A DNA stretch of 34,222 nucleotides, from NCBI GenBank assembly GCA_000747625.2, contig JQDQ01000177.1, positions 1 through 34,222 of the forward strand. The letters are read 5' to 3'. This stretch comes from Smithella sp. SCADC (lineage in GTDB: Bacteria; Desulfobacterota; Syntrophia; Syntrophales; Smithellaceae). Shown here in pieces: positions 6,743-34,010 of this stretch (positions are counted from its first letter, which is position 1; the number at the start of each line of letters is the position of its first letter). Both the position numbers and the translations under genes were made by a program. Under the pieces are notes generated by a model. It saw nothing but the letters and a program-made list of their open reading frames with translations, ran no database searches and was not told where the DNA came from.

Positions 6743-7159
6743 TCAGGGTAAATCTTTCCCCTTCGTTGCCATCATAAACCCCGCGTGCTTTACGCTCTTG
6801 ATGGACTTCAGTTTCTGATAAAGCTCCTCAATTTCTTTTGACTTGCCTTTGGTCACGATAATTTCAAAACAATTATGATGATCGAGATGAATATGCTGTG
6901 TGGAGAGAATGCAGGCATGATAATCATGCTGGACATCTAAAACCTTGGTGACTAATTCTCTTGTATGGTGATCATAAACGAGCGTTATCGCGCCGGTAAC
7001 TTCCTTATTTTCCGTCCATTCCTTCTTGACCAGTTCCTCACGAATCATATCGCGCAAAGCTTCGGACCGATTGGTGTATTTATGTTTTTTAATATGATTG
7101 TCAAATTTTACCAAAAGATCTTCTTCCAGTGATACACCAAAACGAACAAGATTGGACAT
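6743..7159 (-). CDS. nikR: Nickel-responsive regulator NikR
   Basis: 138 residues, the normal length. An N-terminal ribbon-helix-helix DNA-binding domain (VRFGVSLEEDLLVKFD...NRSEALRDMIRE, about residues 5-45) is followed by an ACT-like metal-binding domain. The nickel ligands line up with E. coli NikR His76/His87/His89/Cys95 as His78, His89, His91 and Cys97 (in QHDYHACIL, THIHL-type and HHNC contexts). NikR represses nickel uptake genes when nickel is sufficient. The gene has its own promoter with an overlapping palindrome (7185-7224), consistent with autoregulation. It is last of the nickel-uptake block on the minus strand, 86 bp after the radical SAM gene. GGGAGG precedes the ATG. Confidence 0.93.
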   Translation of the reverse strand: MSNLVRFGVSLEEDLLVKFDNHIKKHKYTNRSEALRDMIREELVKKEWTENKEVTGAITLVYDHHTRELVTKVLDVQHDYHACILSTQHIHLDHHNCFEIIVTKGKSKEIEELYQKLKSIKSVKHAGFMMATKGKDLP

Positions 7160-7184
7160 AATAGTTCCTCCCTTTCCAGAGTGC

Positions 7185-7224
7185 GTGTTTTACAAAGATA
7201 CAAATAACACTACCCAATAGTCAA
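7185..7224 (-). promoter_or_regulatory. nikR promoter with candidate NikR operator
   Basis: TTGACT (7219-7224) serves as -35, with a weaker -10 around 7195-7201. Overlapping it, 7185-7210 contains GTGTTAT, 12 bp, AAAACAC: an inverted repeat of GTGTT/AACAC spanning 26 bp. A second site with the same span lies upstream of the TonB receptor (13131-13156). NikR sites in non-enteric bacteria are reported as GTGTTAC-type half-sites, so autoregulation is likely. Confidence 0.55.
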
Positions 7225-7245
7225 GAAAATTTTGCCATTCGTCAG

Positions 7246-7983
7246 CTACAATATCCGTGTCACCGCAAAACGATCGTCTCTTTCTGACAAGCTGAGTGCA
7301 TGATCAGGCTCCAGCCTGGAACTAGCCACATTTTGGAGATGCCGCCGGCTAAGATTCTCAGCCATCATCATCTGTTCAACCGTGGGCTGTGGATAGGGTT
7401 GACCGGGAACGGGAATGTATCCCATGATGTGAAAAGGAATATTCTTGTCCACTGAGGCTAGCCAGGCGGCGACGTCTTCCACCTGATCGAGATCAACAAG
7501 TCCCGGAACATAAACCACATTAATTTTAAGATTCATTCCTACTTTGTGGGCGGCAGCCACATTTGCAAATATTTGATTTCTTTCCTGTCCCGTAATGGTC
7601 CGATGAAGATCTTCATCCCAGGCCTTAAGACCGATATTGGCCCCGTCCAAGTAAGGCAAAGGAATTTTACTGCCGTTTGTATGTCCCAATCGAGTGCCGA
7701 TATGGAGTTCTTCCTTGGCAAAGCGAAGTATTTCGGGCAAATCCTTTGCCACTGTTGGTTCTCCGCCCATGAAATAGAGATTCTTGATAGGAAGTTTCCG
7801 GAGGGCTTCCTTGATTTCTTCTGTTTTCAAATACTGTTTCGGGGCCGGAAAGGACAAACCGGGTTTTCCAGATGGGCCACTATGAAGTTTATAGCTGCAT
7901 GTCGGGCAACGGAACGTGCATCCATAGTTGTGGACGGTAGCGAAACAATACTTTTCATTGCAGGTTATTTTGTAAAAAGCCAT
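7246..7983 (-). CDS. Radical SAM protein of the nickel-uptake cluster
   Basis: 245 residues. The motif CTFRCPTC near residue 22 supplies the three cysteines (CxxxCxxC) that hold the SAM-cleaving 4Fe-4S cluster. GGEP at about residues 75-78 is the SAM-binding GGE motif; later strands (LKINVVYVPG, IPFHIMGYIP) fit the partial TIM barrel. It resembles compact pyruvate-formate-lyase-activase-like radical SAM enzymes with no added C-terminal Fe-S domain. It lies between the ECF S-subunit gene (22 bp away) and nikR, which suggests a role in nickel metabolism. Possible roles include modifying a metallophore or a nickel enzyme, but no substrate can be read from the sequence. AAGGA precedes the ATG. 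Confidence 0.85.
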   Translation of the reverse strand: MAFYKITCNEKYCFATVHNYGCTFRCPTCSYKLHSGPSGKPGLSFPAPKQYLKTEEIKEALRKLPIKNLYFMGGEPTVAKDLPEILRFAKEELHIGTRLGHTNGSKIPLPYLDGANIGLKAWDEDLHRTITGQERNQIFANVAAAHKVGMNLKINVVYVPGLVDLDQVEDVAAWLASVDKNIPFHIMGYIPVPGQPYPQPTVEQMMMAENLSRRHLQNVASSRLEPDHALSLSERDDRFAVTRIL

Positions 7984-8005
7984 GATTCATTCCTTTCTTG
8001 TTTTA

Positions 8006-8626
8006 TTAGATTCCTCCGTAGCGGACGGCGTTAATGATTGGTTTGCTAAGATATATGCCGATTAAGGCGCCGATTATTGATCCAACTATTCCTTGCGCGG
8101 TCTGGATAAAAATATACCAAGGGGCATAAAACTGATGCCAGATATAGGGCGCAGAAAAACAGTAAAAATAAGTATAAACTGTCAGCCCCCGAAGAAATCC
8201 GGCGCCGAGGGCATTCTTCATGGTATGCAGATAATTCCCTGTAATGATGAAATATAATTCCAGGGCAAATGAGGCCAAAAGCGCATACGGCCACCATAGA
8301 GGATTAAGACCACTGGAGATGATCTGAGATAAGATGCTATGACCGCAAATGATCATGGTTGTTGTCCCTGCCCGAGGAATGAGACGAATACCGATGAAGA
8401 GTGTTGCCGTATAGGGTATGGAAAAAAAGAATGACTGAATCAGGGGGATACGGCTCAGACCGAATTTAAAAGGTAAGATAGTAATATAAAGCAAACTGCA
8501 AAACAGGGCTATGGTCGTCAAGTCTACGGTACTGAAAGACGGGATTGCCTTGCGTGTCCAAAGAAGATGAAATACTATCCCGCCCAGGATGGCAATGAAT
8601 ATCACTGATCCGATGTAGAGATTCAT
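8006..8626 (-). CDS. ECF transporter S-like membrane subunit
   Basis: About 206 residues with five to six hydrophobic helices (IGSVIFIAILGGIVFHLLW, LTTIALFCSLLYITIL, LWWPYALLASFALELYF, IVGSIIGALIGIYLS). It follows the T-subunit gene with an ATGA overlap, which is why the ATG at 8626 (AGGAG 8 nt upstream) is chosen. Position and topology indicate the substrate-binding S component of the ECF importer. It lacks the N-terminal MHIPDG-type sequence that coordinates nickel or cobalt in CbiM/NikM, so it is either a new metal-type S component or binds a metal complex or vitamin-like ligand. The NikR context favours a nickel species, by inference. Confidence 0.7.
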   Translation of the reverse strand: MNLYIGSVIFIAILGGIVFHLLWTRKAIPSFSTVDLTTIALFCSLLYITILPFKFGLSRIPLIQSFFFSIPYTATLFIGIRLIPRAGTTTMIICGHSILSQIISSGLNPLWWPYALLASFALELYFIITGNYLHTMKNALGAGFLRGLTVYTYFYCFSAPYIWHQFYAPWYIFIQTAQGIVGSIIGALIGIYLSKPIINAVRYGGI

Positions 8627-9414
8627 GGCAATATCTCCTGGCACAGGATGAGTATGAACATGCCCGCGGTGGAAAGGCCTAAAAAAGTCCAGTCGCGTGA
8701 AGACAAGGTCAGTTCTTTTAAATTAGTTCTTTTGCCGGTAAATGCACGCACCTCAGCAGCAAGAGCGATACGACGGGCATTGCGTAGACTATCGATAATT
8801 AACGGCGGCAGGAGGCGGTAAAAAGCCCGAAACCAGCCCATTAATCCTTTTACCTTTAGTCCCCGCAGCCTTTGAGCCAGAAGGATGCGTCTTGCCGCAT
8901 CCAACAGAGAGGGAATAAAGCGAATGCTGACCGTAATAACAAAACCAATTCTTTTAGGCATACCCATACTCTCCATGCCCAGCAGCAGATCAGAAGGATA
9001 TGTGGACATAACAATGACTGCACTGAGCAGCATTGCTGAAAAAAGCCGAAGACTCTGCAACGCTCCGTAAATGATACCCTCACGGTATAGAGAGATTCCA
9101 CCGGTTATATTTCCCAGGAATCCCGAATCAGGTGGTAATATTGTAATGATAATTGTGCGCGGTTCAAACGAATAGAAGAATCCTTGTGAAGTCATGGTAA
9201 AAATCAAGGTGGTAATCATAATAATAAACATTGCCTTTACCGTGCTTTTTGCCGGACGCAGAATTCCAAAGAGAATCAGAACGGCAAAACAAAGCAGGAA
9301 CAATTCCAACGGGTTCTTCAAAACAACTATAAGGATGGCGACCATCAAGCCCAGAAGAATCTTTGTCCGGGGATCAAGCCGATGCAGGTATGTTTTCTTA
9401 TCCAGATATTTCAT
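8623..9414 (-). CDS. ECF transporter T component (transmembrane)
   Basis: 263 residues with about five membrane helices. The N-terminus (YLHRLDPRTKILLGLM) is the typical start of EcfT/CbiQ proteins. The cytoplasmic coupling region includes LAQRLRGLKVKG and a later ALAAEVRAF, which corresponds to the Ala-Arg-Gly coupling motifs that contact the ATPases. It overlaps the ATPase gene by 17 bp at its start and the S gene by 4 bp at its end, so the three subunits are translationally coupled. Confidence 0.88.
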   Translation of the reverse strand: MKYLDKKTYLHRLDPRTKILLGLMVAILIVVLKNPLELFLLCFAVLILFGILRPAKSTVKAMFIIMITTLIFTMTSQGFFYSFEPRTIIITILPPDSGFLGNITGGISLYREGIIYGALQSLRLFSAMLLSAVIVMSTYPSDLLLGMESMGMPKRIGFVITVSIRFIPSLLDAARRILLAQRLRGLKVKGLMGWFRAFYRLLPPLIIDSLRNARRIALAAEVRAFTGKRTNLKELTLSSRDWTFLGLSTAGMFILILCQEILP

Positions 9415-10762
9415 CGCTGATGATCCTGCCTTTGCGCATGGTTATTTTACGTTCCGCCAGAGCAGCCGCACGTTCGTTATGGGTTGAAAAGACAATTGTT
9501 CCTCCCCGGTAGGCATAGTCATAAAGCAGAGCCATAAGTTTATGCCATGTTCTATCGTCGAGTCCTGTTGTCGGCTCATCAAGAATGATGATTTCCGGCT
9601 CCATCGCCATAATGGAAATTACCGCCAGGATTTGTCGTTGTCCCCGCGAGATGGTCTGCGGATGGCGCAGTCGGTGATCTTTCAGACCGGCGATTTCCAG
9701 ATATCGCTCCACATCTGTTTTCTGGCTCAGACAACCAGGCCCGAAGGCAATTTCTTCTTCCACAGTTGCAGCGAAAAGTTGTTCATCGGGGTTCTGAAAA
9801 AGAAAACCCACGCGGCCCACCAGATGTTCCAATGCCGGTTTATGAATATTTAAAATCGTGATTTCTCCATGATCGGGTTGCAGGATTCCGCTTATAATTT
9901 TTAAAAGCGTTGTCTTCCCGGAACCGTTATCGCCACAGAATGCAACGATTTCTCCTCTCCGGATCATGATATCAATGTTTTCTAAAACATTGATTTTCTG
10001 GTCATAGCCGAAACAGACATGACACATGGCGATTACGGATGATTCAGAGAGCGCCTTTGCTTTTCTGTCCGGTAGAAAAGTTGTTGCCGATACAGGATTT
10101 TCTATGATCCGCCCGCCCTCCATGTTAATAATATTGTCCATAATGGAGAGATAATCTTCATACTGATGCTCGACCAAAACGACTGTCTTGCCCTTATCCT
10201 TAAGCCCCTTGATAATTCTGAAAAACTCTTTTCGCCCTTCGCCATCCAAATCTGTTGTCGGTTCGTCAAAAAGGAAAATATTGGGGTGCATTGCATAGAT
10301 GGAACTGACGGCTAGACGTTGTTTGTATCCTCCTGAGAGCTTGAATGTTTCCTTGCGCCTCATATCCCATAAACCCATGAAACGCAGGGCTTCATCCCGG
10401 CGGCTGATGATCTCTTCTCTAGGCAGACACAGGTTTTCACAGCCGAATGCCACGTCATCTTCCACCCGCATCATAAAAATTTGACTTTCCGGATTTTGAA
10501 AGACCGTGCCTGCCGTCCTGGCGATCTCGCTCAGAGGCTTTTCCGACGGGGTGAAGCCATTTAATTTGACCGAGCCGTTAGATGATCCGGCAAAAACATG
10601 GGGAATAAGACCGTTCAGACAGTAAAGAAGGGTCGTTTTTCCTGATCCTGAAGCGCCGCGGATCAAAACCGTTTCGCCAGATTCGATTTGCAGACTGATA
10701 TCCTGCAGAGAAGGAGCATCCGCGCCTGGATAGGTATAGCTGAAGGAGTCCATTGTAATCAT
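9398..10762 (-). CDS. ECF transporter fused double ATPase (A component)
   Basis: About 454 residues with two complete ABC ATPase domains in one chain. Domain 1 has Walker A GASGSGKTT, signature LSGGYKQR and Walker B IFLFDEPTTDLDG. Domain 2 has Walker A GDNGSGKTT, an unusual signature ISRGQRQ, and Walker B IIILDEPTTGLDD. It replaces the usual EcfA1/EcfA2 (CbiO) pair and energises import through the T and S subunits. Start: the TTG at 10771 is possible, but the ATG at 10762 has better spacing to GTGAG. It begins 58 bp after the receptor stop on the same strand. Confidence 0.9.
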   Translation of the reverse strand: MITMDSFSYTYPGADAPSLQDISLQIESGETVLIRGASGSGKTTLLYCLNGLIPHVFAGSSNGSVKLNGFTPSEKPLSEIARTAGTVFQNPESQIFMMRVEDDVAFGCENLCLPREEIISRRDEALRFMGLWDMRRKETFKLSGGYKQRLAVSSIYAMHPNIFLFDEPTTDLDGEGRKEFFRIIKGLKDKGKTVVLVEHQYEDYLSIMDNIINMEGGRIIENPVSATTFLPDRKAKALSESSVIAMCHVCFGYDQKINVLENIDIMIRRGEIVAFCGDNGSGKTTLLKIISGILQPDHGEITILNIHKPALEHLVGRVGFLFQNPDEQLFAATVEEEIAFGPGCLSQKTDVERYLEIAGLKDHRLRHPQTISRGQRQILAVISIMAMEPEIIILDEPTTGLDDRTWHKLMALLYDYAYRGGTIVFSTHNERAAALAERKITMRKGRIISDEISG

Positions 10763-10820
10763 ATCAGGCAAATCTCACTGTTATTACTAAAGTCTTGTGC
10801 ACCAAATTTATTTAATTTAA

Positions 10821-13073
10821 TTAAAATTTCACTTCCAGTCCGCCAAACCATGATCTGCCGGGCGCTACGTAAGATGAAAAATAAGATTCATTAAAAATAT
10901 TATCGACGGAAAAAGATAACGTGGCAAATTTGGTGATCTTATAAGATACTTTTGCGTCCGCTGTTAAAAAAGGATCATAGGATAAAAACACATTATTTAC
11001 CTGATCCGTGTTGGTATCTGATGAGTAACGCTTGCCTACATATCTGCCTGTTAAAGAAGCGGAAAAAGATCCTACTTCGCACGCTGCTCCCGCATTAATC
11101 ATTGTATCAGGAATATAAGTCATACGTTTCTCTACAGAAGCCGGATTTGCACTGTTTTCTTTTATCCTGGCGTCGGTATAAGTGTAGTTTGCAAACAGCC
11201 TTACATATTTATCGAAGCGCTGCTCGATTTCCAGCATCACACCTTTGCTTTCGGCCTTACCCGCATTCATGTATTTCTTTTCTGTTGAAGATATTGTCGT
11301 GGTATAAATGAGATCCTTCATATAATTTTCAAAATACGTGGCGCTGACTTTTGCCCCTTTCCAGAGACCCTGTGTAATTTCCGCGTCCCATGATCTCACT
11401 GTTTCGGGGTTCAGATCGGGATTACCGCTGTAGGTTGTGGTACCCGATACATATGTGCCGAATAATTCATAAACCGTGGGTCCCCGGAATGCCTGACCGG
11501 CAGATGCCCTAAGTGTCATGTCATCAAACGGTTTATAGACTACCGCCAACTTTGGACTGAACGAATTGTCGCTTCTGGAATCATATGTCGCCGCAAAAGC
11601 TCCGGTGCCGAACTGATTGGCATAGCCGTCTTTTGTTTCCCACCAGTCTTCCCTGAAGCCGATGTAGGCGGTAAGATTATTCAGAATTAATATTTCATCC
11701 TGGACAAAGACGGCATATGTAATGTCCTTGCCGCCGTAATTATTTGTAAGTATGAGCGTGGAGGTCTCATCTTTCCATTCACTAAGCGTTGATTTCTCAG
11801 TGTTCGCCGTATCGTTTTTTAATGAACCTCCGAAGGTCAGGATGTTTCTGGTGAAAATGGGTATGGTGAACTGAATGTCCGCATTATAATTCTGGTTAGG
11901 AGTGCTGGATACCGTGCCGCCGGCCCCTCCGGCTATATAAGTGCCTGCCTGAGTGTACCAGTTTTTGACTTCATCATTAAGACCTAAAGAGAGTTTGGTT
12001 TTGACAATGCCTATTTCCGTTTCCAGATTCACGTTGTATTGATTTATTTCTTTCGCACCGGCCCCCGTATAGGAAACGAAGGTGCCTTCTTTAACACTCG
12101 TATAGGAATAGACGGGATTTCCTGATGCGTCCTGTAAATAAGTATGTGGATCATCGTAATTATATTTATAACGGACCCTTGCAAATGATGCATTTATTTT
12201 CGAAACCTTGGAAAAATCATACCGCGCCCGGATACCTATATTTTCGTCCCACCAGATATTGTCACCTTTATCGCCTATCAGATATTTGGTGTTTCCTGCA
12301 GTATCCGTAGTAGATGACCAGCCTGCAAGACCGGCACTAGGGTGTGTCGACGTAACATTAAGGTATTTAGAGAAACCGTTTGTCGACTCATATCCGTAGT
12401 TAAAGAGAAGATGGAATTTATCAGCAAATTTATCACCGTAAGACAGATAATATTTTTGAAGATCATCCAGGCTTTCTCCTCGGCTCCAGCTTGAACCATA
12501 TCCGCTTTTTAAAGTGAATTCCCTCTTTTCCGGCATTTTAGTTATGATATTTACTACGCCGCCCATGGCATTACCGCCGTAGAGACTGGAAGATGGACCC
12601 TGAACAACTTCGATTCTTTCGATATTTTCCGTCGATAATCCCGTGAAGCTTACCGAACCGTCATAGCCGTTGTTCAGCGTTATTCCATCCCTTATGATCA
12701 AAGTCCTTTTCTGATCGGAAATACCGTGCAGCAAAATCGATGATTGAACATCTGTCATAGACTGCCGCCTGTTAAAGACACCCGGCAGAGTATTTAAAGC
12801 TTCATCAACTGTCTTGATATTCCTTGTTTCCATTTCTTTTTTTTTCACCACCTTCACGAATCCCGGCGCAGTCGCTACATCTTTTTCCACCCTTGTTGCT
12901 GTAACAACAACCTCTTTCATTGTTATTACACTCTTATCTGCTTCGTTGGTTGAGTTTTCATTTTCCACTTTTGTTACATTCTTCTCTTCTGTGTTGGTTG
13001 TGCCTTTTTCTTCTGCAAAAGATGTCAAAGAAAATACAATTAAAAATAATACAATTAAATACTTTTTTCGCAT
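10821..13073 (-). CDS. TonB-dependent outer-membrane receptor, probably for a nickel species
   Basis: 750 residues. A signal peptide (MRKKYLIVLFLIVFSLTSFA) is followed by an unusual Glu/Asn/Thr-rich linker (about residues 21-48), a TonB-box-like KEVVVTATR, and a plug domain with LPGVFNRR, IRDGITLNNGYDG, ERIEVVQGPSSSLYGG and GGVVNIIT. The rest is a beta-barrel, ending in Phe (GGLEVKF) as outer-membrane barrels do. The N-terminal plug signature is of the BtuB/FepA type. Substrate: a NikR-like operator upstream and an ECF importer directly downstream suggest uptake of nickel or a nickel chelate, by inference. The start is fixed by AGGAGG 7 nt upstream. Confidence 0.9.
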   Translation of the reverse strand: MRKKYLIVLFLIVFSLTSFAEEKGTTNTEEKNVTKVENENSTNEADKSVITMKEVVVTATRVEKDVATAPGFVKVVKKKEMETRNIKTVDEALNTLPGVFNRRQSMTDVQSSILLHGISDQKRTLIIRDGITLNNGYDGSVSFTGLSTENIERIEVVQGPSSSLYGGNAMGGVVNIITKMPEKREFTLKSGYGSSWSRGESLDDLQKYYLSYGDKFADKFHLLFNYGYESTNGFSKYLNVTSTHPSAGLAGWSSTTDTAGNTKYLIGDKGDNIWWDENIGIRARYDFSKVSKINASFARVRYKYNYDDPHTYLQDASGNPVYSYTSVKEGTFVSYTGAGAKEINQYNVNLETEIGIVKTKLSLGLNDEVKNWYTQAGTYIAGGAGGTVSSTPNQNYNADIQFTIPIFTRNILTFGGSLKNDTANTEKSTLSEWKDETSTLILTNNYGGKDITYAVFVQDEILILNNLTAYIGFREDWWETKDGYANQFGTGAFAATYDSRSDNSFSPKLAVVYKPFDDMTLRASAGQAFRGPTVYELFGTYVSGTTTYSGNPDLNPETVRSWDAEITQGLWKGAKVSATYFENYMKDLIYTTTISSTEKKYMNAGKAESKGVMLEIEQRFDKYVRLFANYTYTDARIKENSANPASVEKRMTYIPDTMINAGAACEVGSFSASLTGRYVGKRYSSDTNTDQVNNVFLSYDPFLTADAKVSYKITKFATLSFSVDNIFNESYFSSYVAPGRSWFGGLEVKF

Positions 13074-13091
13074 TCGTTTCCCTCCTGTTGT

Positions 13092-13097
13092 TTACAT
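13092..13097 (-). other. Start-stop mini-ORF in the receptor leader
   Basis: On the minus strand a strong Shine-Dalgarno site (AAGGAGGTGGT) is followed by ATG TAA. It lies eight codons upstream of, and in frame with, the receptor start, which has its own ribosome site. A ribosome initiating here would terminate at once. It could be a translational control element, or a former longer N-terminus. Confidence 0.45.
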
Positions 13098-13130
13098 ACC
13101 ACCTCCTTTATGTTATAAATCACTGAGGAG

Positions 13131-13156
13131 GTGTGATGCTATTTGTGTTGTTACAC
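13131..13156. promoter_or_regulatory. Candidate NikR operator upstream of the receptor gene
   Basis: GTGTGAT, 12 bp, GTTACAC: an inverted repeat of 7-bp half-sites spanning 26 bp, matching the span and half-sites of the site at 7185-7210. It lies 58 bp before the receptor start and could also affect larE. A possible receptor -10 (TATAAC on the minus strand) is at about 13113-13118. Confidence 0.5.
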
Positions 13157-13163
13157 TTCTTTC

Positions 13164-13327
13164 GAGGCAGGGGATCCTCGCCAAAGGTAATACCCTGCCT
13201 CTCTATTTATTTGATGGTCTGGTCTATCCTTAATAAATAATCACTATCTTCCAAATCAACGCTGCCCAGAGGGGCTTCCAATATCGAAGCTTGGAGGACC
13301 TTGGCAAGAGGTACCCCTCTGAACAGC
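13164..13327. other. Two related stem-loops between the receptor and larE genes
   Basis: Stem-loop 1 pairs GAGGCAGGG (13164-13172) with CCCTGCCTC (13193-13201). Stem-loop 2 pairs CAGAGGGG (13267-13274) with CCCCTCTG (13314-13321), extended by GCTG/CAGC (13261-13264 and 13324-13327). Their 3' halves are similar: CCTCGCCAAAGGTA..CCC at 13176-13195 and CCTTGGCAAGAGGTACCCC at 13299-13317. They may form a regulatory RNA or terminators (TCTATTTATTT follows loop 1 on the plus strand). I do not recognise a known riboswitch. Nothing else is evident in 13328-13470. Confidence 0.45.
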
Positions 13328-13494
13328 TTTATTCCGTGCTATGAAAACGATAATCGTAATAATGCGGGCCATCAGTAGCACGTATGTATAAAAAATATTA
13401 CGAAAATGTCAAGAAATATTTAGCAAGATAAGACGACGAATCGGCGACTGCTTCTTACTTAAAAATCAGCGGCATTGAATATCTATTTATGTTA

Positions 13495-13500
13495 TATAAT
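13495..13500 (+). promoter_or_regulatory. larE -10 box, possible leaderless mRNA
   Basis: A perfect TATAAT is placed so that transcription would begin at about 13506-13508, on the larE start codon. No Shine-Dalgarno site precedes that ATG. A good -35 is not evident: TTGAAT at 13475 is only 14 bp away. Confidence 0.4.
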
Positions 13501-13507
13501 CATATTT

Positions 13508-14335
13508 ATGGAACTTCAGGATGCTTTAAAACAACTTGAGTATAATATCGGAGAAAAAGGTTCTTTGGCTGTGGCTTATTCCGGTGGCGTCGACAGCACG
13601 TTTCTATTGAAGGTTGCCCATGATGTCTTACAAGATCGAGTCATTGCTGTAACAGCGCGATCTTCAATTCATCCGCAAAGAGAGTTTAAGGAAGCCGCAG
13701 AATTTGCCCGTAGCGCCAGAATCAAGCATATTGTCATTCAATCAAAGGAATTGGAGATTGAAGGTTTTACTAATAATCAGCCTAACCGATGCTATTTGTG
13801 CAAATACGCATTGCTTTCCAAAATAAAAGGAGTAGCTGAAAAATGCTACATACAACACATTGCCGAAGGATCAAACATCGATGACCTTGGTGATTACCGC
13901 CCCGGGATGAAGGCGATTAAAAAACTGGGAATTATCAGTCCACTTCAGGATGCCGGCTTAAATAAAGACGCCATTAGAAAATTATCAAAAAAAATGAGAT
14001 TGCCCACGTGGGATAAACAATCTTTTGCCTGCCTGGCGTCACGCTTTCCTTACGGTGAAAAAATAACAAAAGAGAAACTGGCAATGGTGGATAGGGCTGA
14101 GCAATGTCTGCTCAGTTTTGGATTCAAACAGGTGCGAGTGCGTCACCATGGTGATACAGCGCGGATTGAAGTGGCTGAAGCCGAACGGCCTAAATTTTTC
14201 GATCTGGAACTGATGGATAATGTATACAAACAATTCCGGGAAATTGGTTTTGCCTATACTGCTTTGGACCTGCAAGGGTACCGCACCGGCAGCATGAATG
14301 AAGTGATTGATACGCGCCTAGAGATACTTGAGTAA
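13508..14335 (+). CDS. larE: Pyridinium-3,5-biscarboxylic acid sulfurtransferase LarE
   Basis: 275 residues, a PP-loop ATP pyrophosphatase. SGGVDST at about residues 25-31 binds ATP. LarE adenylates the biscarboxylated nicotinate mononucleotide made by LarB and installs sulfur on the way to the nickel-pincer cofactor of lactate racemase. Cys95 and Cys98 (NRCYLCKY) and Cys175 (SFACLASRFPYGE) are present. Cys175 sits where the sacrificial Cys176 of Lactobacillus LarE is expected; the added CxxC suggests the cluster-binding type in which a 4Fe-4S cluster carries the sulfur. The start at 13508 is chosen because the PP-loop spacing is normal and the upstream extension reads through the promoter. 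It converges on larB, with 15 bp between the stops. Confidence 0.9.
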   Translation: MELQDALKQLEYNIGEKGSLAVAYSGGVDSTFLLKVAHDVLQDRVIAVTARSSIHPQREFKEAAEFARSARIKHIVIQSKELEIEGFTNNQPNRCYLCKYALLSKIKGVAEKCYIQHIAEGSNIDDLGDYRPGMKAIKKLGIISPLQDAGLNKDAIRKLSKKMRLPTWDKQSFACLASRFPYGEKITKEKLAMVDRAEQCLLSFGFKQVRVRHHGDTARIEVAEAERPKFFDLELMDNVYKQFREIGFAYTALDLQGYRTGSMNEVIDTRLEILE

Positions 14336-14350
14336 AACGATTCTCTGGAT

Positions 14351-15100
14351 TTATTTCAGTTTATTGATCATGCTGGCTATGCAGGCTGCACCGAAGCCAT
14401 TGTCGATATTCACAACCGACACTCCTCCCGCACAACTGTTGAGCATTGCCAGCAAAGCGGCTACGCCCTGAAAGCTTGCTCCATAACCAACAGAAGTGGG
14501 CACCGCGATTATCGGTTTATCCACCAGGCCGCCGACGACGCTGGGCAGGGCTCCCTCCATTCCGGCAACGACAACGATGACACGTGCTCCACGGATTAAA
14601 TCCAACTTGTCCAATAAACGGTGCACACCGGCCACACCGACGTCGACAATTCTTTCCACACGATTACCGAAAATTTCGGCAGTAACGGCTGCCTCTTCGG
14701 CAACGGGCAAATCGGACGTTCCTGCTGTCACAACGGCGATGTAATTTTCGGACAGAGGTAGTTCTTTTCTTGTTAGCGTAATTGTCCGGGCAAGCGGATG
14801 ATACGCAGCAGCAGGACAAATCTCTTTGACTGCGGCAAAAACTTCTTCGCTGGCGCGTGTAGCTAGAATGTTGGCATCTCCGGCCATCATGGCCTGTATA
14901 ATAGTTTTTATCTGCTCATTAGTTTTGCCAGGGCAAAAGATCACCTCCGGATAACCGATACGCATCTCGCGGTTTGTATCGAGTTTGGCGCAACCCAAAT
15001 CAATGTAAGATAGATTTCGCAACTTGAAGATACCAGCTTCGACATCTATTTCCCCGTCGCGTATATTTTCCAGAAGAACTTTTAATGCATCAGTATTCAT
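14351..15100 (-). CDS. larB: Pyridinium-3,5-biscarboxylic acid mononucleotide synthase LarB
   Basis: 249 residues, the normal size. The C-terminal half has the PurE-like fold motifs: TAGTSDLPVAEEA, VDVGVAGVHRLL, VVAGMEGALPSVVGGL, AVPTSVGYGASFQG and NIDNGFGAA. LarB carboxylates and hydrolyses nicotinate adenine dinucleotide as the first step of nickel-pincer nucleotide synthesis. The start overlaps the larC stop (ATGA), so larC and larB are translationally coupled. Confidence 0.93.
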   Translation of the reverse strand: MNTDALKVLLENIRDGEIDVEAGIFKLRNLSYIDLGCAKLDTNREMRIGYPEVIFCPGKTNEQIKTIIQAMMAGDANILATRASEEVFAAVKEICPAAAYHPLARTITLTRKELPLSENYIAVVTAGTSDLPVAEEAAVTAEIFGNRVERIVDVGVAGVHRLLDKLDLIRGARVIVVVAGMEGALPSVVGGLVDKPIIAVPTSVGYGASFQGVAALLAMLNSCAGGVSVVNIDNGFGAACIASMINKLK

Positions 15101-16305
15101 TTTTTGTTCCTTTTTGCAACGCGAATACTTTCATAAATATCCTGGATGGTAACATCGTTTTCTTTTGCCAGCTTCTTGCAATCTTCATATTCCGTCTTGG
15201 ATTTGATTACTCGTCCTTTTAAGTAGCCATTTTTTATCGTTATTTCGCCATACTTGGTTTTGACTTTTACCATTTTTCGCCGCAGCATAGACTTGGCAAC
15301 TTTGTAAGAACGCAGGCCGAAGGTGGATGAATTCAGCCATAGAACCTCTTCCATCGCTTTTTGTTTTCCAACATCACAAAGCACAGATACTGTTACCGCC
15401 GGACGGGATTTTTTCATAATGATCGGTGTGAAGAAGACATCATGAGCACCAGCGGAAAAAAGACGCTCCATCAATGTGTCATAGAGTTCTGGATTCATAT
15501 CATCAATATTGCATTCGATAATAACAGCTTCGCCGGTTTCCAGATCATCTGATTTTGCTGCACCGGTGGATATCTCGCCCAAAAATAAGCGCAGGACATT
15601 AGGTATAGTAGAATCTTTACTGCCCAGACCATAACCGATTTTCTGTGGAGTGAAATCAATTTTATCGGTAAAAGATGAAGCTGTTGCAGCAATTATCGCC
15701 GCTCCGGTTGGAGTTGTTGCCTCAAAAGGCACAAGACCGGTTTTAATGGGAATGCCCTGAAGAATTTCCGCCGTGGCCGGCGCCGGGACAGGCAGGATGC
15801 CGTGGCTGCAATTAATTATACCGGAACCAACCTGAATGGGTGAGAAGATAACCTTGTCGACTTTTAAATAGTCCAGACAAATTGCCGCACCGACTATGTC
15901 GACAATCGAATCGATTGCACCTACCTCGTGAAAATGTACATCTTCAATTTTATGTCCGTGGATTTTTGCTTCAGCTTGCGCAAGACAGGTGAACATATCA
16001 AGACTGATCTTTTTGACATGGGCAGATAAATTGCTCTGCTTAATTATTTTTGTAATGTCTCTGAATGAGCGTTTATTGAGACCGGTTTGTTGAGATGTTT
16101 TCTTTGGAGAAGAAACCTCAACATCAACTTTTGTTCCGGTAATACCCCCACGCTTATCTTTATAAATTTTTAGTTGATAGGAATCAAAAGGCAGCTTTCC
16201 GAGTTCTTTTAATAAATATTTTTGGTCAATACCAAGATCAAGCATGGCTCCCAGGTTCATGTCGCCGCTGATGCCGGCAAAACAATCATAGTATAAAATT
16301 TTCAT
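15097..16305 (-). CDS. larC: Nickel-pincer nickel insertase LarC
   Basis: 402 residues in one continuous frame; in some lactobacilli LarC is made as two parts by frameshifting, which is not the case here. The start MKILYYDCFAGISGDMNLGAML is the conserved N-terminus, with ATG at 16305 after GAAGGGA. Further conserved stretches are HFHEVGAIDSIVDIVGA, CSHGILPVPAPATAEIL, TPTGAAI and ECNIDDMNPELYD. LarC uses CTP to insert nickel into the dithiocarboxylated nucleotide. An open extension upstream to 16464 lacks conservation-like sequence. Together with LarB and LarE this completes cofactor synthesis; the racemase LarA is not in the window. Confidence 0.92.
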   Translation of the reverse strand: MKILYYDCFAGISGDMNLGAMLDLGIDQKYLLKELGKLPFDSYQLKIYKDKRGGITGTKVDVEVSSPKKTSQQTGLNKRSFRDITKIIKQSNLSAHVKKISLDMFTCLAQAEAKIHGHKIEDVHFHEVGAIDSIVDIVGAAICLDYLKVDKVIFSPIQVGSGIINCSHGILPVPAPATAEILQGIPIKTGLVPFEATTPTGAAIIAATASSFTDKIDFTPQKIGYGLGSKDSTIPNVLRLFLGEISTGAAKSDDLETGEAVIIECNIDDMNPELYDTLMERLFSAGAHDVFFTPIIMKKSRPAVTVSVLCDVGKQKAMEEVLWLNSSTFGLRSYKVAKSMLRRKMVKVKTKYGEITIKNGYLKGRVIKSKTEYEDCKKLAKENDVTIQDIYESIRVAKRNKK

Positions 16306-16483
16306 CAAATCATTCCCTTCACTGCATTCATGGGAAATATGGTCGAAACTATTCTTGAAGTCAAGTCCGTTTTCTTCATAACGACGGATATGACGTAGAA
16401 AGGTTGGGCTGGTCTGAAAATTTCTAGTGGACAAGTGGCTTATGTGCCGTTCATGGCCAAGCAAAAGGAAAGAATTTATTAAA

Positions 16484-30516: not shown

Positions 30517-30604
30517 GCCTGGGTGGCGGAATTGGTAGACGCAAGGGACTTAAAATCCCTCGGTCCTTGAGGCTGTGCGGGTTCAATTCCCGCCCCAGGC
30601 ACCA
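30517..30604 (+). tRNA. tRNA-Leu, anticodon UAA
   Basis: Acceptor stem GCCTGGG/CCCAGGC, anticodon stem GGGA/TCCC with loop CTTAAAA giving TAA, a long class-II variable arm, and TpsiC GGGTTCAATTCCC. CCA is encoded at 30602-30604. The 3' end lies 5 bp from a decayed integrase gene, so it is the likely attachment site of a former island. Confidence 0.96.
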
Positions 30605-30608
30605 ATTA

Positions 30609-31436
30609 TCATTGAGATTTTAAGGATTGATTTTGATTTGCTTCGATAGGAATTTTTAACACTGTGCCCGCAATTGTGCCCATTTGTGCCTGAAGATAGG
30701 CTTCTTGTTTTTGCGCGGCAAGTTTTAAATCGGTTTCACTTACTATATTGTATCTTTCAAAGACTGACCTTGTTCTATGCCCCGAAATAGCCATTGCAAC
30801 ACGTTCAGGCACGCCCGCCCTGACCATGTTTCTGACAGCCGTTCGCCGGAAATCGTGAAACAATTTATTTCCATTTTTAGAATCGGTGCAAGCTTTCGCC
30901 CATGCACCCCGAAAGTCTTTGATCTTGTCGGTTCCTGATTCATTCATAAAAACATAATGCGATATTTTGCCAAGTTATTTTTGCCGTTCTTTCTGATTAA
31001 GGAATACAGTTTTTAGTTCATCATCAAGATAAACTGTGCGGGCTTCATTGTTCTTTGTTTCGTCTGATTCAAGTCTGACAATATTATTATCAAGGTCAAC
31101 TTGTGCCCATTTCAAACTTGTAATTTCAGAAACGCGCCACCCGGATTTATAGGCAAAAGTGACCAAGCTTTGCAGATATGACGGCAATGCTTCGCGCAAT
31201 GCACAAATCCAAGATTCAATATTCTTTTGAGCGCGGCCAGTTCCCTGTTGATCGTGGCATTACTTTTTTTATCTGCTAATCTCTCTTCAATATAGCCTTG
31301 AATTTTCGGTGTCGTGATTTCCGGCACTCTATAACCATCAAAGAATTTTTTTAATTGATTTGCACTACGTTCAGCGCGGTTTAATGACTTCTTTTCGTTA
31401 ACGCGATAATCAGACACAAAGTCTTTCGCAAGATCC
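30609..31436 (-). pseudogene. Decayed tyrosine recombinase/integrase
   Basis: Three pieces cover one integrase. N-terminal core-binding part (about 31436-31215): DYRVNEKKSLNRAER, TPKIQGYIEERL and NRELAALKRILNLG. Middle part in another frame (31199-30975): REALPSYLQSLVTFAYKSGWRVSEITSLKW, with the first catalytic Arg. C-terminal part in frame with the middle but after an in-frame TAA (30975-30977): [22 protein letters not shown] with the Arg, His and Tyr catalytic residues. About 45 residues between LNLG and LREALPSYL are missing. The gene is non-functional. Its C-terminal end abuts the tRNA-Leu 3' end, the usual position for an integrase of a tRNA-integrated element. Confidence 0.85.
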
Positions 31437-33313: not shown

Positions 33314-33682
33314 GTGACGAATAGAAAAGAAAAAACGCTTGTATGGATAGGTAGTAGCAAAAAAGATTTAATGGCGCTGCCATCTGGTGTTCGCAAGTTT
33401 TTTGGTCATGCCTTGTATTTTGCTCAATGTGGAGAGCAACACGTTGCGGCCAAAGTACTTAAAGGCTTTGGGAGTGCGGGCGTCTTGGAGATTGTTGAAA
33501 ATGCTCAAGGCGGTACTTTCCGTGCAGCATACACTGTCAAATTCCAGGAGGCGGTTTTCGTGTTGCATGTGTTCCAGAAAAAGAGCAAGGGCGGCATAGC
33601 AACACCAAAGCCGGAGATGGATATCATCCGCGCGCGTCTGAAAGTCGCGGAAAAACTTTCACAGGAGATGCGTGATGCATAA
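33314..33682 (+). CDS. HigB/Gp49-like RelE-superfamily toxin
   Basis: 122 residues from GTG at 33314. LVWIGSSKKDLMALPSGVRKFFGHALYFAQCG, AKVLKGFGSAGVLEIVEN, TFRAAYTVKFQEAVFVLHVFQKKSKGGIATPK. These are hallmarks of the phage-derived Gp49/HigB-like family; the toxin precedes the antitoxin, as in higBA. The ribosome site is weak. It overlaps the XRE gene by 8 bp. Confidence 0.87.
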   Translation: MTNRKEKTLVWIGSSKKDLMALPSGVRKFFGHALYFAQCGEQHVAAKVLKGFGSAGVLEIVENAQGGTFRAAYTVKFQEAVFVLHVFQKKSKGGIATPKPEMDIIRARLKVAEKLSQEMRDA

Positions 33683-34010
33683 GCAAAAGATTGATGGCGT
33701 CGAAGTTGAGATGAGCTCAGGTAATGTTTTTGCCGATGTCGGTTTGCCTGATGCTGATAAACTGAAAATCAAATCGGGGCTCGTGATTGAGATCAGTAAG
33801 GCGGTGCGCAATCTTGGCTTGTCGCAAGGGGAAGCCGGTCGCCGTATGGGGTTACCTCAACCCAAACTATCTGGACTGCTCCGTGGTGATTTTTCTAACG
33901 TATCTGAGCGCAAATTGATGGATTGTTTGAACCGGCTAGGATACGATATTGAGATTATGGTTAAGCCTGCCACCAAGCCAGTTGGTCATGTAATGCTGGC
34001 CGTAGCATGA
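33675..34010 (+). CDS. XRE-family antitoxin (HigA-like)
   Basis: 111 residues from the ATG at 33675 (AGGAG upstream). N-terminal linker (VFADVGLPDADKLKIKSGL), then a helix-turn-helix: NLGLSQGEAGRRMGLPQPKLSGLLRGDFSNVSERKLMDCLNRLG. This is the antitoxin type paired with HigB/Gp49 toxins, which also represses the operon. Confidence 0.88.
   Translation: MHKQKIDGVEVEMSSGNVFADVGLPDADKLKIKSGLVIEISKAVRNLGLSQGEAGRRMGLPQPKLSGLLRGDFSNVSERKLMDCLNRLGYDIEIMVKPATKPVGHVMLAVA

Follow-up and report, generated by a model that had tools for sequence, protein, structure and literature searches.

In CbiM and NikM the metal site is an N-terminal Met-His, and among the ECF transporters with other cargo, YkoD has two ATPase domains. 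HutW belongs to the radical SAM route of anaerobic haem use. Little is known about how anaerobes that live beside methanogens acquire nickel when free nickel is scarce. The accessible part of a survey of nickel and cobalt use from 2009 lists the transporters known and suggests new systems in organisms without any of them (PMC2667541), and PMC7689651, in the part that is accessible, treats cobalt and known transporters. A survey from 2024 on how cable bacteria handle nickel contains, in its available text, no radical SAM or ECF term (PMC11247825). In the anaerobic release of iron from haem, as far as the accessible text of PMC12583661 goes, two routes free the metal, one through the CobN-like de-chelatase HmuS and the other through a radical SAM pathway of the chu operon. 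Our literature searches found no description of a nickel ECF transporter with a radical SAM enzyme and NikR, of a NikR regulon with TonB and ECF components, of F430 uptake or salvage, or, of this kind, of CbiZ or CobN with an ECF transporter; among the matches listed there was none on nikR, radical SAM and TonB nickel uptake together (subscription papers being mostly outside the scope) and none on nickel tetrapyrroles with TonB. The initial annotation of the locus described here had likewise known of no system of such composition, and the searches, among the matches listed for some of them, found none.

The window, that is, the whole stretch of DNA analysed (34,222 nucleotides), belongs to a genome of 3.19 Mb in 244 contigs with a completeness of 94.68 and a contamination of 8.22. 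A TonB receptor, ECF A-T-S subunits, a radical SAM enzyme and nikR had been annotated in one direction, and all are present at the given place, on the minus strand with the receptor first. The gene for the TonB-dependent outer-membrane receptor (10821..13073, minus; PF00593, 169.5 bits; PF07715, 86.4 bits) is followed by those for an ECF ATPase with two ABC domains in a single chain (9398..10771, minus; TIGR04520, 361.7 bits, two stretches), a T subunit of the CbiQ family (8623..9414, minus; PF02361, 106.4 bits), an S subunit of an unclassified family with an S-component fold in the model (8006..8644, minus), a 245-aa radical SAM enzyme with a CxxxCxxC motif (7246..7983, minus; PF04055, 64.2 bits) and the nickel-responsive repressor NikR (6743..7159, minus; NF003381, 174.9 bits, cut-off 105; NikR_C PF08753, 99.4 bits), in which His89, His91 and Cys97 fit the nickel-site pattern. 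For the receptor, the best NCBIfam models are haem and B12 receptors, and none of the 25 among the matches listed reaches its cut-off.

Beyond the receptor promoter lie three neighbours for nickel-pincer cofactor synthesis: larE on the plus strand (13475..14335; TIGR00268, 328.7 bits, cut-off 150; probable start ATG 13508), then larB (14351..15100; NF033503, 306.8 bits, cut-off 175) and larC (15097..16464; PF01969, 485.2 bits; TIGR00299, 222.7 bits; probable start near 16305, the Pfam match running from residue 57) on the minus strand. Being present in 2 of 14 cassette loci, the lar genes are ruled out as part of the cassette; a LarA-type isomerase is encoded elsewhere in the genome (L019; NF052515, 558.2 bits, cut-off 400), so larE, larB and larC would serve a purpose of their own. 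A riboswitch at 13070-13520 was also ruled out, the single Rfam match there having an E of 0.88, far under the gathering score. At the far side of the window, a tRNA gene (30517-30601) is followed by ORFs (30609-31417) that by eye resemble pieces of a phage-type integrase, as at the end of a genomic island, and two adjoining ORFs at 33314-34010 resemble, also by eye, a RelE/HigB toxin and an XRE-type antitoxin.

With a threshold of E 0.001, the S protein has matches in 8 of the 99 relatives, the genome of the window counted, and seven of these were kept; G037 (E 1.3e-4, 38% over ~60 residues, chance-like in the alignment) was left out, as was a second match in G081, the same gene cut by a contig end. 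At wider ranges, S occurs in 8 of 155 genomes of the class, in 7 of 395 of a phylum draw (two distant) and in 2 of 285 of an Omnitrophota draw (one distant). A scan of a species-level collection gave 11 loci, Syntrophorhabdus and two Omnitrophota among them, eight of which appear to coincide with our G-numbered genomes, making 14 distinct cassette genomes in total. In Smithella sp. D17 (contig JQOA01000023.1) the S protein is 99% identical to that of the window, and none of the 106 pattern matches in viral contigs was confirmed. Two C-terminal fragments of the S gene (G249:C65:71728-71913 and G431:C21:8253-8456), of which one contains a TGA, appear to be relics of a second copy and were not counted.

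Composition was scored by tblastn at 1e-8 over stretches of 4.9 to 37 kb. All 14 cassette loci encode the ATPase and the T subunit, 13 the radical SAM enzyme, 12 the receptor and 10 nikR; lar genes occur in two of the loci, and none encodes a corrinoid gene of the set looked for (CobN, ChlI, CbiZ, CobB, PduO, BluB). G103, whose locus is without radical SAM and nikR, is represented by a 4.9 kb contig with one end at S and the other in the receptor gene. No receptor was seen in G006, in which the contig ends inside the ATPase gene, or nearby in G536; in G535 the contig begins inside the receptor gene. Cassettes linked to nikR occur in both Thermodesulfobacteriota and Omnitrophota, and nikR was present in 10 of the 11 genome handles searched, G535 being the one that misses it (G052 and G539, with the same nikR match, are one genome); in G053 and G052 it lies elsewhere in the genome, unlinked to the cassette. 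The cassette of G053, with antisense ORFs at the locus, was found by tblastn, as was nikR of G534 and of G249. The proposed link of S, radical SAM and nikR therefore recurs, with radical SAM in 13 and nikR in 10 of the 14 loci. Because co-occurrence with nikR holds, the contrary picture, an S subunit of a vitamin family that does not co-occur with nikR, was not what we found.

Two cassettes have a small protein beside them (L025:2998-3399 and L026:8856-9230; 124-133 aa, 41% identity, containing Cys residues and hydrophobic stretches), which in the case of L025 has no Pfam or NCBIfam match. As a common client of the cassette, [NiFe]-hydrogenase was not supported: PF00374 matches eight of the 12 genomes searched, the exceptions being G008, G006 (71% complete), G052 and G431.

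The delta-proteobacterial NikR consensus, GTGTTAC-[N13/14]-GTAACAC, is taken from the accessible part of PMC545781. The cassette of the window had been described as flanked by NikR-like sites, and two putative operators are indeed present on the minus strand, GTGTTAT-N12-AAAACAC upstream of nikR (7185..7210) and GTGTAAC-N12-ATCACAC upstream of the receptor gene (13131..13156). Each agrees with the consensus at 11 of 14 positions, with a spacer of 12 bases in place of the published 13 or 14, and for each the score is equalled in 6 of 200 shuffles; taken alone, the sites of the window are therefore suggestive, and it is across loci that enrichment appears. In 210-base upstream stretches (n=15, 12-base spacers allowed too; the window and G006 share a near-identical site), at least 11 of 14 positions are matched in 8 of the 15, against 1.87% of random and 2.1% of shuffled stretches, and 12 of 14 in three, against 0.43% and 0.1%. 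The best site stands 37 to 40 bases before the start in the nikR-led operons of G081, G303, G536, G431 and G534, the last two scoring 10. Four upstream regions, those of the receptor gene and of nikR in G009 and in G008, gave no NikR-like site; in G008 the promoter before tonB-exbB-exbD scores 12. Positive controls were the NikMNQO operons of G009, G065 and G000, with scores of 14, 12 and 12. The NikR of the window shares 97% identity with its counterpart next to NikMNQO in G007, which makes its gene native to the genus, and the cassette NikR proteins of Omnitrophota and Syntrophorhabdus are ~58% identical to it. The linkage of cassette and nikR has therefore probably arisen, or been renewed, more than once.

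In one genome the cassette stands where relatives have NikMNQO. The order in G007 is three marker genes, a site-2 protease, a porin, NikMN, NikQ, NikO and nikR, and in G002 it is porin, NikMN, NikQ, NikO, nikR, larE, larB and larC; in G008 the same marker genes and protease are followed by nikR, radical SAM, S, T, A, receptor, exbD, exbB, tonB, larE, larB and larC. The ancestral order is pieced together from G007 for the protease side and G002 for the lar side, as neither stretch spans both flanks. A CbiM match is absent in G008 (completeness 99). A CbiM protein is found in 38 of all 99 relatives and in four of the seven S-positive ones (G000, G006, G009 and G053; absent in G008, G052 and G081), so the cassette is often an addition. 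In G000, the NikMNQO region lies on two contigs, C188 (L073) and C207 (L074), with matching genes, and the assembly seems to contain duplicated or mixed-strain sequence.

At the level of sequence, a role of the cassette in nickel supply is well supported. The NikR link and the NikMNQO slot would also suit the import of free Ni ions or of a simple chelate such as nickel-histidine, in which case the radical SAM enzyme would modify a nickel enzyme, chaperone or transporter, or activate a glycyl-radical enzyme standing in for a nickel enzyme when nickel is limiting. There are known TonB receptors that act on nickel, according to the accessible part of PMC11247825. We nevertheless regard such an arrangement as unlikely, owing to features of the S subunit and of the radical SAM enzyme.

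That the S subunit is not of the CbiM type, as initially annotated, was borne out: a Pfam and NCBIfam search gave no CbiM domain (PF01891), nothing in NCBIfam at E 0.01 and nothing above cut-off in Pfam. With the CbiM match absent, a free-ion S subunit of the CbiM kind is ruled out. A search of the PDB by sequence found no relative. The structure model (mean pLDDT 87.4, 12 aligned sequences) resembles an ECF S component in its predicted fold; its best PDB match is the S component 5edl, which we take to be YkoE (probability 1.00, TM 0.56, E 3.3e-3, 18% identity), the best structural rows further include ThiT and RibU entries, and no structural match reaches E 0.001 or better. Several homologues begin at the residue aligned with Met7, base 8626, in the alignment. 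Invariant in the 13 aligned cassette S proteins are Y53, K60, W117, W118, Y120, R152, Y157, Y161, W169, H170, W176 and Y177, among others; there is one invariant His, with another nearly invariant, and the invariant residues include many aromatic and some basic ones. A single invariant His, together with the absence of His at position 2 from all 13 aligned N-termini (two of these being T-S fusions), argues against transport of the free ion, and we infer that the invariant aromatic and basic residues would be more suited to an organic acid as ligand than to a bare ion.

A wider S profile placed the subunit in a larger family: it detects S domains in 16 genomes of the 395 and in 4 of the 285, and sisters outside the cassette account for 11 and 3 of these, respectively. 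The loci of these 14 sister genomes hold a receptor in 10 cases, CobN in seven, CbiZ in five (all confirmed as PF01955, 182-193 bits) and ChlI in four, and that of G568 holds a CobB-PduO-BluB set, each above its NCBIfam cut-off. Thus CobN, ChlI/ChlD, CbiZ or CobB-PduO-BluB occur in 11 of 14 sister genomes compared with none of the 14 cassette loci; the sisters lacking a corrinoid or chelatase marker are G222 (5 kb contig), G169 and G306. Conversely, nikR and the cassette-type radical SAM gene are found in none of the 14 sister loci. Sister S proteins are mostly open frames of 500-670 aa with an additional N-terminal part, and the five proteins scanned from this family (L052, L053, L092, L112-L123) have no Pfam and/or NCBIfam match; they are probably uncharacterised corrinoid importers, to judge from their gene neighbours. 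One corrinoid-type locus encodes a different radical SAM protein of 332 aa between CobN and CbiZ (L121:5580-6578).

In the S tree, 14 cassette proteins stand on one side of a branch (94/97) and 13 sister proteins, several of them long-branched, on the other; the nearest sister, G568, itself has a long branch. G219 was kept out of the tree because contig ends truncate its S gene, and the L053 row of one alignment, being in a wrong frame, was not used. The receptor tree contains 16 receptors only, so that closer ones may exist; in it, 7 of 8 cassette receptors group with the receptor of G337 (ChlI; 98/97), all eight group with those of G337 and G219 (CobN; 98/99), the Omnitrophota receptor of G534 pairs with that of G219 (91/93), and the cassette receptors are not a single clade. 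CbiZ, CobB, PduO and BluB act on corrinoids, and the cargo of the S family is therefore most likely a metal tetrapyrrole or a related compound. Since the ligand of an S component can change, kinship to corrinoid loci is no proof of a tetrapyrrole. The distant S relatives in corrinoid loci could also mean that the cassette is a corrinoid importer incidentally under NikR control, with a radical SAM enzyme that remodels corrinoids. This seems very improbable to us, as the corrinoid genes tested occur in 0 and nikR in 10 of the 14 cassette loci, the cassette occupies the NikMNQO slot in G008, and Rfam at gathering scores returned one tRNA and no other match in the window, hence no cobalamin riboswitch.

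The radical SAM enzyme was proposed to be dedicated to this system, and its distribution agrees: at E <1e-100 it is found in exactly the same 7 of 99 relatives as S, besides its presence in 13 of 14 cassette loci. A paralogue of 33-34% identity occurs in two further genomes of the 99. The cassette enzymes fall into two subfamilies with different operon positions and 26-32% identity to each other's first member; the CxxxCxxC cysteines are kept in all nine aligned proteins, the 13 cassette enzymes and two orphan paralogues (G078, G062) form one group in the tree (96/90), and holding the 13 together is not rejected (p 0.21). The orphan paralogues lie at L075:9256-10020 and in L076 near 9836-10822, and one adjoins genes that by eye resemble methylmalonyl-CoA mutase and its chaperone. 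In an Omnitrophota draft genome the radical SAM gene appears as two ORFs (L029:2356-3084). Close relatives on plasmids were ruled out, the 181 matching records all being below 60% identity and the ten matches listed at 25.5%.

Pfam matches of the enzyme are limited to Radical_SAM, Fer4_12 and Radical_SAM_2, no auxiliary-cluster domain being found, and none of the 23 NCBIfam models among the matches listed reaches its cut-off; the glycyl-radical activase models TIGR02493, TIGR02494, TIGR04041 and the others listed are all below theirs. Haem-opening enzymes of the HutW/ChuW type are HemN-like and expected to have HemN_C, and a match to this C-terminal domain was not found in Pfam. The structure model (mean pLDDT 83.0, low confidence at the ends) is nearest to the PFL activating enzyme 3c8f (TM 0.70). 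This enzyme acts on a protein, as the import of free ions or a simple chelate with modification of a protein would have it; like the absent HemN_C match, the resemblance weighs against a ligand-cleaving role. Two results go against that explanation here: no glycyl-radical enzyme was seen by eye as a conserved neighbour in the cassette maps, and the close radical SAM enzyme is absent from S-negative relatives, six of which have nikR beside NikMNQO.

A TonB receptor, a transporter and a modifying enzyme together form a pattern of metallophore systems. The content of the cassette matches this pattern, as it would if the radical SAM enzyme made or finished a nickelophore that is secreted and then re-imported via the receptor and the ECF transporter. 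We consider this improbable, since inspection of the cassette maps by eye revealed no conserved second biosynthetic gene, precursor gene or exporter. The initial annotation had suggested import of a nickel chelate, with the radical SAM enzyme either making or processing the ligand. Because the corrinoid-locus relatives of S point to ligands of the tetrapyrrole type and no conserved biosynthetic gene or exporter was seen, import and processing are favoured over making.

The genes of the cassette and their recurrent linkage, the enrichment of NikR-like operators, the position in the NikMNQO slot of one genome and the relationship of S (and of the receptor, in a limited tree) to corrinoid or chelatase loci may be read jointly as a nickel-acquisition cassette that imports an organic nickel complex, alters its ligand by the radical SAM enzyme and releases the nickel; for this reading we judge the balance to be even. 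NikR would repress the cassette when nickel suffices, the TonB receptor would carry the organic nickel complex over the outer membrane, the ECF A-T-S transporter with its new kind of S subunit would move it into the cytoplasm, and the radical SAM enzyme would cleave or alter the organic ligand so that nickel is freed for the nickel enzymes of the cell. The cargo would then be nickel in a tetrapyrrole-like organic complex, with the radical SAM enzyme acting on the imported ligand and, by analogy, perhaps holding the place that CobN, ChlI/ChlD or CbiZ has in the sister loci.

More tentatively, it is possible that the cassette is a means of piracy, in which coenzyme F430 that methanogens shed, or what it breaks down into, serves as the nickel source and the ring is opened, or the nickel stripped off, anaerobically by the radical SAM enzyme; in this equally tentative picture the receptor and S would descend from a corrinoid-type importer and NikR would switch the cassette on at nickel shortage. 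F430 is the nickel tetrapyrrole that suggests itself for syntrophs with methanogens as neighbours; that it is the cargo is a guess. The accessible parts of PMC12622379 and PMC8123684 deal with F430 biosynthesis and contain nothing on uptake by bacteria. If import and processing of an organic nickel complex is correct, an S-subunit family outside CbiM/NikM is used for nickel, an organic nickel source, maybe from partner archaea, is exploited, and a radical SAM subfamily of unknown function is given a substrate class; the wider S family would be an unnamed set of probable corrinoid importers. If F430 is the source, the cassette would be the nickel counterpart of anaerobic haem piracy.

Compared with known systems, the cassette resembles the thiamin-precursor transporter YkoEDC in the predicted fold of S (5edl, TM 0.56), whereas identity in the structural match is 18% and the cassette has a nikR link, not thiamin genes. 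The radical SAM route of haem-iron release concerns iron and HemN-like enzymes of the HutW/ChuW type, whereas nickel is the proposed metal of the cassette and its enzyme is small and resembles PFL activating enzyme. What the two would have in common, on the cassette side as a proposal only, is a metal freed from an imported tetrapyrrole inside an anaerobe (PMC12583661, in its accessible part). The corrinoid-linked ECF loci share a homologous S domain, the double ATPase, the T subunit and, in 10 of 14, the TonB receptor; they differ in that their S proteins are mostly longer, with the extra N-terminal part, and in having neither nikR nor the cassette radical SAM gene. With NikMNQO/CbiMNQO the cassette shares the ECF A and T subunits, the NikR link and, in G008, the chromosomal slot, whereas its S subunit is without CbiM domain or family match, and it is accompanied instead by a TonB receptor and a radical SAM enzyme.
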